A DNA stretch of 64,000 nt from Rosistilla ulvae (GTDB lineage: Bacteria > Planctomycetota > Planctomycetia > Pirellulales > Pirellulaceae): positions 4,651,798-4,715,797 of the forward strand of contig NZ_CP036261.1 of assembly GCF_007741475.1 (NCBI RefSeq), in the 5' to 3' direction. The translations under genes were made by a program, and so were the position numbers. This document shows positions 58,429 through 60,803 of this stretch, one piece after another (within the stretch, counting starts at the first letter, position 1; every line of letters starts with the position of its first letter). The notes below the pieces were generated by a model. The model saw only the letters and a program-made list of their open reading frames with translations, made no database searches and had not been told where the DNA came from.

Positions 58429-59859
58429 TCAGTCTTCGATAGCACAGATGTCTGGTTGACCATCCCCCGCGGGGATCGTCGTCATCTCATCGCAACCGGC
58501 AGTAACCACTTTGGCAAGTTTCGCGTCGAGTGCCGGTGCGACCCAACGCAGGTTGATCACCACCCCATCACCAGTTGTTTTACACAGCAACATCGGATTC
58601 GACTGGTTCAACCGCTTCGCCAGCGCCTCGACCGATTCGTTTGAATCGGCTGCCGGGCGAATCTCGATCTCGACCGACGGCAGGCTCCAACTGGCACCCG
58701 GCCACAGTCGGGCCACGACTTGTTCGCTGCAAACGGTCGCTTGATAGCCCGCTTGTTCCAGGCGATTTTTGATACGCATCGCTCGATCGACCAGATTCGC
58801 ATGCTTCGTTTCCAGCATTGCCAGGATTGAACCTTCAGGGGCGGCCCCATCGATCCAGATTTGCAGCGCCAGGATCATCGTCGCCTGGGCCGTCAGATCG
58901 GCTTGCAACCAGCACCAATCGCGCGATTGAGAGATCGGTTGCAAGCATGTGCTTTCGCCAAATATCAAACCGAGCGCCGGTCCCCCCAACAAACCGTCAC
59001 CCGATGTGATCAGCAACACGTCGCGACTGCGTTGCTGCAGCGTCGGGATCGCCGGATTGACCAGATCGTCCAACGCGCGCGGTGCGACATAAGGTGCGAC
59101 ATAAGGTGCGACATGCATCAACCGACGCAAACCGGCTACCGTGTCGTTCGGTGGTTCGCTGACAACTGGTTCGCCTACGGTGCCGTCGACGATCCGGTCG
59201 GCTGTCACCAGCCCGCACTTCTCCAGATCGTCCTTCAATTCGCTGCGGACGCTTTCGGGGGACCAACCGTCGACCGATCCGACTTCGACAACTTTGCAGT
59301 TCGCCGATCGCAACAGATCGGGCAGACTGATCCCCGAAGGCAATTGAATGGCTTGCGATCGGGGGACCACGAAGATCTCGGTCCCCCTTTCCGATTTGGC
59401 AACCGCGACGATCGCCGCTTCGATGCTATCAGCCGCCAAGACATGGTGTCCGGTCAGCTTAATCGATGCGGTTTGCAGCGCGCGTTGCACCGAATTCCGC
59501 GCCGTTGCGTTTTGGTGCGTCGCGTGGAACAACAATGGATGTTGCATCGCCAACGCCACCGGGATGCCGCAGCCCCCCAGCATCAGCGTACCGCTGGCAT
59601 TAATCGAAGCGGTATTGATTGAATTTTCGGGGTGGATGTAATCGGCCAACGTCGCAGCGTGCTGGCGGGCGGCATCAAAAAACCGCTCCACCTCGCGAGC
59701 GGCTGAACCGGGTAAACTGTTCACCACGTCGCTGATCTTCGACCGCAATTCGCTTGCCAATTCGGGTTTGCGAATCGTTGCCGCAGCTTGGGAAAGCCGC
59801 TCTTCGAGGAACTCGCTAGCCCACTCGGAGAGGTTTTGCTTCGTTTGGTTCATGTTCAT
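58429..59859 (-). CDS. SelA-like protein lacking the PLP lysine
   Basis: 476 residues resembling L-seryl-tRNA(Sec) selenium transferase, a PLP enzyme of the fold-type I family. Aligned parts: SINASGTLMLGGCGIPVA (SelA: INATGVVLHTNLGRAP), VLLITSGDGLLGGPALGLIFGE (SelA: FSGDKLLGGPQAGIIVG), and WLQADLTAQATMILAL (SelA: LRADKMTLAALEATL). The lysine that binds PLP in SGDKLLGG is Gly289 here (codon 58993-58995). The enzyme should therefore not bind PLP as SelA does. A 12-bp in-frame repeat gives VAPYVAPYVAP at 250-260. No selB, selD or selC-like gene is in the window. It may be a degenerate paralogue with another role. Confidence 0.8.
   Translation of the reverse strand: MNMNQTKQNLSEWASEFLEERLSQAAATIRKPELASELRSKISDVVNSLPGSAAREVERFFDAARQHAATLADYIHPENSINTASINASGTLMLGGCGIPVALAMQHPLLFHATHQNATARNSVQRALQTASIKLTGHHVLAADSIEAAIVAVAKSERGTEIFVVPRSQAIQLPSGISLPDLLRSANCKVVEVGSVDGWSPESVRSELKDDLEKCGLVTADRIVDGTVGEPVVSEPPNDTVAGLRRLMHVAPYVAPYVAPRALDDLVNPAIPTLQQRSRDVLLITSGDGLLGGPALGLIFGESTCLQPISQSRDWCWLQADLTAQATMILALQIWIDGAAPEGSILAMLETKHANLVDRAMRIKNRLEQAGYQATVCSEQVVARLWPGASWSLPSVEIEIRPAADSNESVEALAKRLNQSNPMLLCKTTGDGVVINLRWVAPALDAKLAKVVTAGCDEMTTIPAGDGQPDICAIED
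59081..59114. repeat. In-frame 12-bp tandem repeat in the SelA-like gene
   Basis: GGTGCGACATAA is repeated (59081-59092, 59093-59104, partial 59105-59114), encoding VAPY units on the minus strand. This is a likely slippage expansion with copy number variable between strains. Confidence 0.9.
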
Positions 59860-60017: not shown

Positions 60018-60803
60018 ATGAGCACGATTCTCGACACGATCATCGCCAAGAAACACGAAGAACTGGCGGCGGCAAAGCGGGTGCGACCGATCGAGCAATT
60101 GGAAGCTTTGGCTGCCGCAGCGGCGGCCCCGTTGGACTTCCACGCCGCATTGGCCGCGACCGACGAAGTCCGATTGATCGCCGAGGTGAAGAAGGCGAGC
60201 CCATCGGCGGGAATCATCCGCGAGGATTTTGATCCGGTCGCGATCGCCACGACGTACGCCAATTCGGGTGCCGCCTGCATCAGCGTCCTGACCGACGAGA
60301 GTTTCTTTCAAGGCAATTTGGAATTCCTGCGGCAGATCCGCGCCGCCGTCCAGATCCCGCTGCTGCGCAAAGACTTTATCATCGATCGATATCAATTGTT
60401 GGAAGCCCGCGCGGCTGGAGCCGATTGCGTGCTGTTGATCGCGGAGTGCTTGAGTGCCGAACAATTGATCACCCTGCACCGACAAGCTGGCGAATTGGGG
60501 CTGCAAACGTTGATCGAATTCTACGACGACGAAAACTTGCCAGCGGTTTTGGCAACCGAAGGCCGCTTGATCGGCGTCAACAATCGCGACCTGCGAACGT
60601 TCCATACCGATCTTGGTCATACGATTCGGATGCGTTCGCAAATCCCGGCCGACCGGCTGTTGGTCGGCGAGAGCGGGATCCGGACAAATGAAGACGTCAA
60701 GTCGCTGGGCGCTGCTGGGGTCAAAGCGATCCTGGTCGGTGAATCGCTGATGCGGCAGTCCGATATCGGCCAAGCGGTTCGCACCCTGTTAGGCAAATCC
60801 TAG
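60018..60803 (+). CDS. trpC: Indole-3-glycerol-phosphate synthase
   Basis: Makes indole-3-glycerol phosphate in tryptophan synthesis; 261 residues. TIM-barrel residues match: Lys58 in AEVKKASPS (catalytic), Lys118 in LLRKDF, the Glu in IEFYDDE, GVNNRDL (phosphate region) and GESGI plus ILVGESLM (phosphate-binding loop). It is monofunctional, with no TrpF domain. No other trp gene is adjacent, so the pathway is dispersed, as in many planctomycetes. It is divergent from the SelA-like gene. Confidence 0.95.
   Translation: MSTILDTIIAKKHEELAAAKRVRPIEQLEALAAAAAAPLDFHAALAATDEVRLIAEVKKASPSAGIIREDFDPVAIATTYANSGAACISVLTDESFFQGNLEFLRQIRAAVQIPLLRKDFIIDRYQLLEARAAGADCVLLIAECLSAEQLITLHRQAGELGLQTLIEFYDDENLPAVLATEGRLIGVNNRDLRTFHTDLGHTIRMRSQIPADRLLVGESGIRTNEDVKSLGAAGVKAILVGESLMRQSDIGQAVRTLLGKS

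Follow-up and report, generated by a model that had tools for sequence, protein, structure and literature searches.

The stretch of DNA analysed here (hereafter the window) comprises 64,000 nucleotides of the genome of Rosistilla ulvae, a planctomycete of the family Pirellulaceae (contig NZ_CP036261.1, positions 4,651,798 to 4,715,797), and carries on its minus strand a gene for a homologue of the selenocysteine synthase SelA, in which a glycine stands at the position of the lysine that forms the Schiff base with pyridoxal 5'-phosphate (PLP). The open reading frame (ORF) has 476 codons and begins with ATG; the first Met of the proteins of congeners aligns with its second Met, so the true start may lie at 59853. 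The parts of the gene are as follows.

58429..59859, minus strand: SelA-like gene, proposed pseudoenzyme, 476 residues; congeners 67-68% identical
59671..59859, minus strand: N-terminal helical region, residues 1-63; by position, the counterpart of the SelA domain that binds the selenocysteine tRNA (tRNA-Sec)
58855..59610, minus strand: PLP fold-type-I core, residues 84-335; conservation relaxed in the window's clade
59587..59604, minus strand: INASGT block, residues 86-91; Asn87 and Gly90 kept in 48 of 48 clade sequences
59566..59568, minus strand: Gly98, by alignment at the position of SelA Arg86 (selenophosphate, catalysis)
58978..59004, minus strand: SGDGLLGGP block, residues 286-294; Gly292 in 43, Gly293 in 44 and Pro294 in 46 of 48 clade sequences, Lys replaced
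58993..58995, minus strand: codon GGT (the plus strand reads ACC), Gly289, at the PLP Schiff-base lysine position (Aquifex Lys285)
58912..58914, minus strand: Cys316, by alignment at the position of SelA Arg312
58903..58905, minus strand: Gln319, by alignment at the position of SelA Arg315
58510..58854, minus strand: C-terminal part, residues 336-450; conservation in the clade about that of SelA, higher in age-matched pairs

The protein matches the Pfam SelA family (5.3e-14, 52.5 bits, cut-off 22.8), a similarity beyond what chance would be expected to give, and scores 62.8 bits, far under the cut-off of 267.9, with TIGR00474, the selA equivalog model. Gly289 lies within TSGDGLLGGP, which aligns without gaps to SGDKLLGGP of the Aquifex aeolicus SelA and places the glycine opposite Lys285; the Aquifex numbering was verified by aligning a lysine-bearing planctomycete SelA to 3w1h. 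Reading of the codon and the gap-free alignment thus confirm the observation of an earlier note on this DNA that glycine replaces the PLP lysine. Of the SelA blocks described in that note, the third, ADLTAQATMILAL, aligns with RALRIDKLTLSGLEMTLKLY of SelA but lacks the two arginines and the lysine of the latter. An in-frame tandem repeat of 12 nucleotides is present at 59080-59117 (VAPYVAPYVAPR in the protein), where the congeners are shorter by four residues (VTSYVAPR, VAPYVAPR).

The R. ulvae genome, a single contig of 7.48 Mb, was searched whole for the selenocysteine (Sec) machinery. Neither selB (best match 152 bits, cut-off 242, profile positions 1-263) nor selD (best match 65 bits, cut-off 125) was found. 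The tRNA-Sec model gave seven matches, the best of which (47.6 bits) is barely above the Rfam cut-off of 47 and is typed by ARAGORN as tRNA-Ser(tga), the six weaker ones being untyped, so that no tRNA-Sec was found; genuine matches in other genomes score 62-73 bits, and ARAGORN gives tRNA-Sec(tca) in a control genome (G013). A second SelA homologue was likewise not found, the gene of the window being the only match to the selA model. The absence of selB, selC and selD, noted earlier for the vicinity of the gene, therefore extends to the whole genome as searched.

Lysine position and active-site residues in the relatives

A match to the protein was obtained in 50 of 60 related genomes, and two congeners, 68% identical to it, both have Gly at the lysine position; an isolated mutation or a sequencing error was rejected on this ground. 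A profile built from 12 lysine-less proteins matches 296 of the 396 genomes of the order. In the family labelled f1, which is the Pirellulaceae since it includes Rhodopirellula and Rubripirellula, 190 of 195 genomes have a SelA-family match (weak in G004 and G266) and 92 of 195 have selB by hand count, the total of 195 assuming that genomes without a match are ordered by kinship as among those listed. When 391 Planctomycetota genomes were searched with a profile of the window's clade, strong full-length matches came only from R. ulvae and one other genome (G086), the best match elsewhere having an E-value of 1e-46 or weaker; the window's family was thinly represented in this sample, which bounds the clade from outside only. 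Within the genomes sampled, the clade looks confined to the Pirellulaceae.

The lysine position was read in 128 sequences, mostly best matches and not a random sample. Lysine was present together with selB in 50 and without a detected selB in six, and was absent without a detected selB in 60 and with selB in 12. The six include sequences from two assemblies of limited completeness (G025, 78%; G035, 72%) and from G333, which has a normal SelA with a lysine-less copy alongside and in whose assembly selB was not found. Among the 12 genomes with selB and a lysine-less copy, 11 also carry a SelA with Lys, and 10 of these 11 coexisting copies fall in the window's clade, the copy of G009 (Gln) lying outside it; the remaining genome (G351, 86% complete) has one copy only. 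Lysine-bearing SelAs where no selB was found occur in G041, G037 and G018 (L029, L017 and L007, respectively), and these may be intermediates, or else orphans like the SelA of Helicobacter. The frames with the lysine-bearing SelA are unusually long in L017 and in L141 (G284), with 732 and 831 residues, owing either to fusion or just to an open upstream frame.

In a tree of the 128 sequences, that of the window belongs to a clade of 48 sequences, one from each of 48 genomes; these represent 15 genera of f1, and none of the sequences has the lysine. The position is occupied by Gly in 33 of them, Val in four, Ala in three, Arg in two, Pro in two, and Phe, Leu, Ser and Thr in one each. The earlier suggestion that a Gly conserved in relatives would mark a non-catalytic family is thus borne out for the absence of Lys (48 of 48) and not for Gly itself (33 of 48). 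In one related branch outside the clade the position is His.

The residues of the 48 clade sequences were compared with 50 SelAs from selB genomes, the latter selected for Lys. At the positions of Arg86, Arg312 and Arg315, the SelAs have Arg in 50 of 50 each; the clade has it in one, four and four of 48, respectively, and the window protein has Gly98, Cys316 and Gln319. The Arg119 position carries Leu, Ile, Val or Phe in 44 of 48 clade sequences and is replaced in the window protein also, as is the equivalent of Ser217, which is mostly gone in the clade. The Asp of DxGSG has become Val, Ile, Leu or Met in 46 of 48, and the counterpart of the NNNAGA loop is largely lost. SelA Asp284 is retained in 18 and Ser282 in 13 of the 48, the window protein among them. 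Asn87, Gly90 and Arg167 are kept in 48 of 48 each, and Glu192, Gly194, Gly-Gly-Pro 292-294, Gly297, Gly301, Asp436 and Arg438 largely so, the window protein having Asn436. Residues invariant in 24 aligned clade sequences have newly arisen, e.g. Trp13, Trp315, Arg359 and Trp439. The GGP block itself is altered in Neorhodopirellula pilleata, Aporhodopirellula aestuarii, Rhodopirellula sallentina and R. rubra (L215, L217, L218 and L219), and the N-terminal MALPPWTVELLRRGV is identical among these four despite that alteration.

Use of another lysine, one of the options of the earlier note, finds no support as a family trait: over all core columns of the 48 clade sequences no conserved alternative was found, the highest frequency of Lys being 29%, and the best column overall (73%) is located in the N-terminal helices.

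Selection, domain constraint and predicted fold

The ORFs are intact in the 48 clade genomes. The ratio of nonsynonymous to synonymous substitution rates (dN/dS), calculated by the Nei-Gojobori method (NG86), is 0.04-0.13 in eight clade pairs outside the genus of the window, one further pair being saturated, 0.08-0.12 in four pairs of a second lysine-less group, and 0.09 and 0.16 in two catalytic SelA pairs, with two others saturated. The dN/dS test for constraint proposed in the earlier note thus gave values well below 1 (0.04-0.22 with the genus of the window included), and the window protein and its clade are under purifying selection. An isolated change or decay, which the note had set against a family trait, is at odds with the Gly of the congeners, the intact ORFs, these dN/dS values and the coexistence with a lysine-bearing SelA.

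Genomes carrying both copies permit the lysine-less protein and the resident SelA to be compared over the same genome splits. Eight of the ten two-copy genomes listed were used; G196 and G284 were left out for very divergent copies, and G361 and G009 were not in the list. Because genomes recur among the 28 resulting pairs, these are not independent, and if the resident SelA arrived later from elsewhere, its copies may not match the age of the genome split. In the N-terminal region the identity is 79% for the lysine-less copy vs 44% for the resident SelA, and in the C-terminal part 62% vs 50%, each higher in 28 of 28 pairs. In the core it is 65% vs 77%, lower in 27 pairs and higher in one, and over the whole protein 66% vs 63%, higher in 20 and lower in eight. 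Thus, in these eight genomes the constraint sits on the N- and C-terminal parts and the catalytic core is relaxed. The pattern is similar over all sequences, where the identities for the N-terminal region, core and C-terminal part are 38%, 28-32% and 36% in the clade and 33%, 61% and 37% in SelA. Constraint has thus shifted away from the PLP core and towards the part with which SelA holds its tRNA.

Structural models were compared with the Protein Data Bank (PDB) using Foldseek. For the window protein, the top 22 matches are all SelA chains, with template modelling (TM) scores of 0.40-0.44. The model of the relative from K23_9 (CP036526, G219) has a predicted local distance difference test (pLDDT) score of 77.0, matches 3w1h_A with a TM score of 0.70 over 440 columns, against 0.43 for the weaker window model, and again has SelA chains for all its top 22 matches. 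The core fold is predicted from these models to be that of SelA. The N-terminal region is helical, of the right length and strongly conserved, with low model confidence, and from its position, length and helices it probably keeps the N-terminal fold of SelA.

Phylogeny, gene neighbourhood and proposed history

The column of the lysine was removed from the alignments for the 128-sequence tree and for a more careful tree of 54 of these sequences, and was kept for the rooted tree and the approximately unbiased (AU) test. Two changes of the lysine state are required on the 128-sequence tree, where L108 (G136, Gln), on a very long branch, adjoins L007 (G018, Lys) within the lysine-bearing part, which counts against a single loss. 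L108 was left out of the careful trees. On the 54-sequence tree, all 30 lysine-less sequences lie on one side of a single branch (support 98/94), which fits a single loss; the support for the window's clade is 99/94 on this tree and 100/100 on the rooted one. Planctomycete homologues with Lys, which the earlier note held would reduce the glycine to an individual variant, do exist, but lie across this branch from the 30 lysine-less sequences.

The rooted tree and the AU test used 52 of the 54 sequences plus five others, with the long branches L106 and L109 left out. When rooted on Escherichia coli, the lysine-less sequences are nested in the planctomycete SelAs, beside that of G041, a genome with a lysine-bearing SelA in which selB was not found; this placement is moderately supported (89/98, 96/80), with a warning from the program about long branches. 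The stem of the clade is long (1.78 changes per column). A recent duplication of the resident SelA within the genome was rejected, as the AU test gave p 0.009 against joining the clade with the resident SelAs, a test that is sensitive to long branches and supposes that the group is named before the tree is inspected, which here was done after.

The catalytic SelAs L142, L146, L150, L152 and L103 (of G219, G135, G246, G392 and G270, respectively) cluster with SelAs of the planctomycete families f18 and f21 (100/97 for the first four, the resident SelAs), which suggests that these Pirellulaceae may have regained Sec decoding from another lineage.

Downstream of both catalytic and lysine-less selA genes lie genes of a family labelled c1, which encode secreted-looking proteins about 280-340 residues long; three members have no Pfam match. 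Three c1 loci are the following.

L127, 8218-9051: c1
L134, 5559-6401: c1
L137, 8425-9441: c1

Among sequences with at least 900 nucleotides downstream, c1 was observed in 30 of 120, and on the same strand in 12 of 46 lysine-bearing selA genes with selB, 16 of 22 in the second lysine-less group and none of 44 in the window's clade. From this distribution, the second lysine-less group looks like selA left in place and the window's clade like selA that has moved, and descent of the window gene from a paralogue unrelated to the native selA is not favoured.

The divergent neighbour of the window gene is the following.

60018..60803, plus strand: trpC, indole-3-glycerol phosphate synthase (PF00218), thought to be unrelated to the function

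Pfam also recognises, among the neighbouring genes, those for a TIM-barrel protein, an FAD oxidoreductase and a recombinase of the phage-integrase family, and none of the Pfam-matched neighbours indicates selenium. In other genomes, alaS is divergent from the lysine-less gene at five loci (Pfam confirmed in two), and a gene that we take to encode an aspartyl-tRNA synthetase-like protein is on its upstream side at eight. These tRNA-synthetase neighbourhoods, neither kind of which is present in the window, are suggestive at most.

Taken together, a tentative history may be proposed from the single rooted tree. The native selA of the Pirellulales would have been freed once Sec decoding was lost, and would then have lost its lysine, probably once; the lysine-less gene would have been remodelled along the long stem into the window's clade, and some lineages would later have reacquired Sec decoding with a different SelA.

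Probable function and comparison with known systems

The window protein is probably a pseudoenzyme derived from SelA, a protein of SelA-like shape that would serve in binding or as a scaffold and not as a catalyst. SelA chemistry appears untenable because of the residues lost and the genome content, and decay because of the selection observed; since the parts conserved are the counterpart of the tRNA-binding region and the C-terminal part, a binding or scaffold role is indicated. Of the possibilities raised in the earlier note, loss of catalysis with such a role is the one supported, and from the sequence comparisons we infer that no PLP chemistry of the SelA type is performed.

Several observations weigh against this reading. 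The window protein retains the pocket residues Asp288 and Ser286 and the equivalent of Arg116. The quality of its model is low (pLDDT 62.6), and in this model and that of the K23_9 relative alike the N-terminal region scores poorly (about 37-61 per block of ten residues). The dN/dS is higher in the genus of the window (0.15-0.22 in three pairs, rough values with dS above 1), and the age-matched genomes belong to the genera g62 and g68 and not to that of the window. No conserved operon partner was found across the window's clade in the comparison of neighbouring genes. The N-terminal region is just slightly more basic than that of SelA (Lys plus Arg 11.1 vs 8.9 over about 72 residues), so that RNA binding is a guess.

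It is unlikely that the protein is still an enzyme, working with PLP or pyridoxamine 5'-phosphate (PMP) without a Schiff-base lysine or through a new active site unrelated to PLP. ColD-type dehydratases have His at the Schiff-base lysine position, as does one related branch outside the clade, and both the retention of the fold with the GGP and INxTG blocks and the newly invariant residues would suit an enzyme; however, the clade tolerates many different residues at this position, what corresponds to Ser217, to the DxGSG Asp and to most of the NNNAGA loop has been lost as well, and among the three main parts conservation is lowest in the core, except in the eight-genome pairs (C-terminal part 62%, core 65%). 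That the protein still makes selenocysteine through an unusual active site, as its full length and SelA fold might suggest, is practically excluded by the genome content, since tRNA-Sec, SelB and SelD were not found in R. ulvae; the Lys and Arg residues of catalysis are missing too.

The protein could conceivably assist SelA in a regulatory or structural capacity, on the model of serine palmitoyltransferase, whose subunit LCB1 is without the catalytic residues, including the PLP lysine, that are present in LCB2 (excerpts of PMC3794620). The occurrence of both copies together in eleven selB genomes and in G333 would agree with such a partnership, which is nevertheless very unlikely: selB was not found for 60 of the 72 lysine-less sequences, the R. 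ulvae genome has no SelA to pair with, and the lysine-less clade is not joined to the resident SelAs on the tree (the AU result above). Highly improbable, too, is a decaying relic left after the loss of Sec decoding. The absence of detected Sec decoding genes from the R. ulvae genome, the relaxed core and the long stem are what such a relic would give, but it is contradicted by the intact ORFs with dN/dS well below 1, by a whole-protein identity that exceeds that of the resident SelA in most age-matched pairs, and by the presence of the copy in genomes that retain SelA.

With a binding or scaffold pseudoenzyme as the preferred reading, the leading guess for the ligand of the N-terminal domain is RNA, maybe tRNA-Ser or another tRNA, because the same domain grips tRNA-Sec in SelA. 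It is possible, though rather doubtful, that the Pirellulaceae have remade SelA into a non-catalytic binder of tRNA or other RNA, perhaps still a ring (SelA is a decamer, a pentamer of dimers), with the core as frame and the N-terminal domain, now under the strongest selection, binding e.g. tRNA-Ser, used in Sec-less species and, beside SelA, in Sec-using ones.

At least 15 genera thus have a SelA homologue that is probably incapable of PLP chemistry of the SelA kind and in which selection points to the region that binds tRNA in SelA. This raises the testable question of what a SelA without an active site binds, for which the two-copy species are natural controls. An annotation as 'selenium transferase' in a planctomycete is no evidence of selenocysteine use.

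In the open-licence text of PubMed Central, where full names may be missed, no paper on a lysine-less SelA was found. SelA homologues in Sec-less species, with an alternative enzymatic function proposed, were known before (excerpts of PMC4607533); Zhang et al. noted such homologues in organisms without Sec decoding (excerpts of PMC1794560), and Sec genes are reported in some planctomycetes, including one Rhodopirellula (excerpts of PMC4807772).

The family resembles SelA (TIGR00474) in homology over most of its length, the helical N-terminal region with a fold-type-I core, the INxTG and GGP blocks, the DLR motif near the C-terminus and the best structural matches, and the window protein differs from it in the replaced counterparts of Lys285, Arg86, Arg119, Arg312, Arg315 and Ser217, in its TIGR00474 score and in the Sec machinery not found in its genome. 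Structural neighbours of the same fold are Cap15 (8t7j), D-glucosaminate-6-phosphate ammonia-lyase (7lc0) and MJ0158 (2aeu), which presumably bind PLP via a lysine, PLP being named in the title of the Cap15 entry only. Their chains of 365-369 residues fit the SelA-like subfamily without the tRNA-binding domain, which occurs with or without Sec decoding (excerpts of PMC4607533); the lysine-less family, unlike this subfamily, has the N-terminal region and is without the lysine. Like LCB1/SPTLC1, it is a fold-type-I homologue that persists without catalytic residues (PMC3794620, in part), but LCB1 is the partner of a catalytic paralogue, whereas in most lysine-less genomes no SelA partner or selB was found. 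The orphan SelA of Helicobacter pylori (HP1513) described by Cravedi et al. offers a contrast: both are SelAs under purifying selection after the loss of Sec decoding, but HP1513 has retained its active site and not its N-terminal domain, which in SelA binds tRNA-Sec, and is proposed to serve as an enzyme in some alternative function (excerpts of PMC4607533), whereas the lysine-less family keeps the N-terminal region and loses most of the active site.
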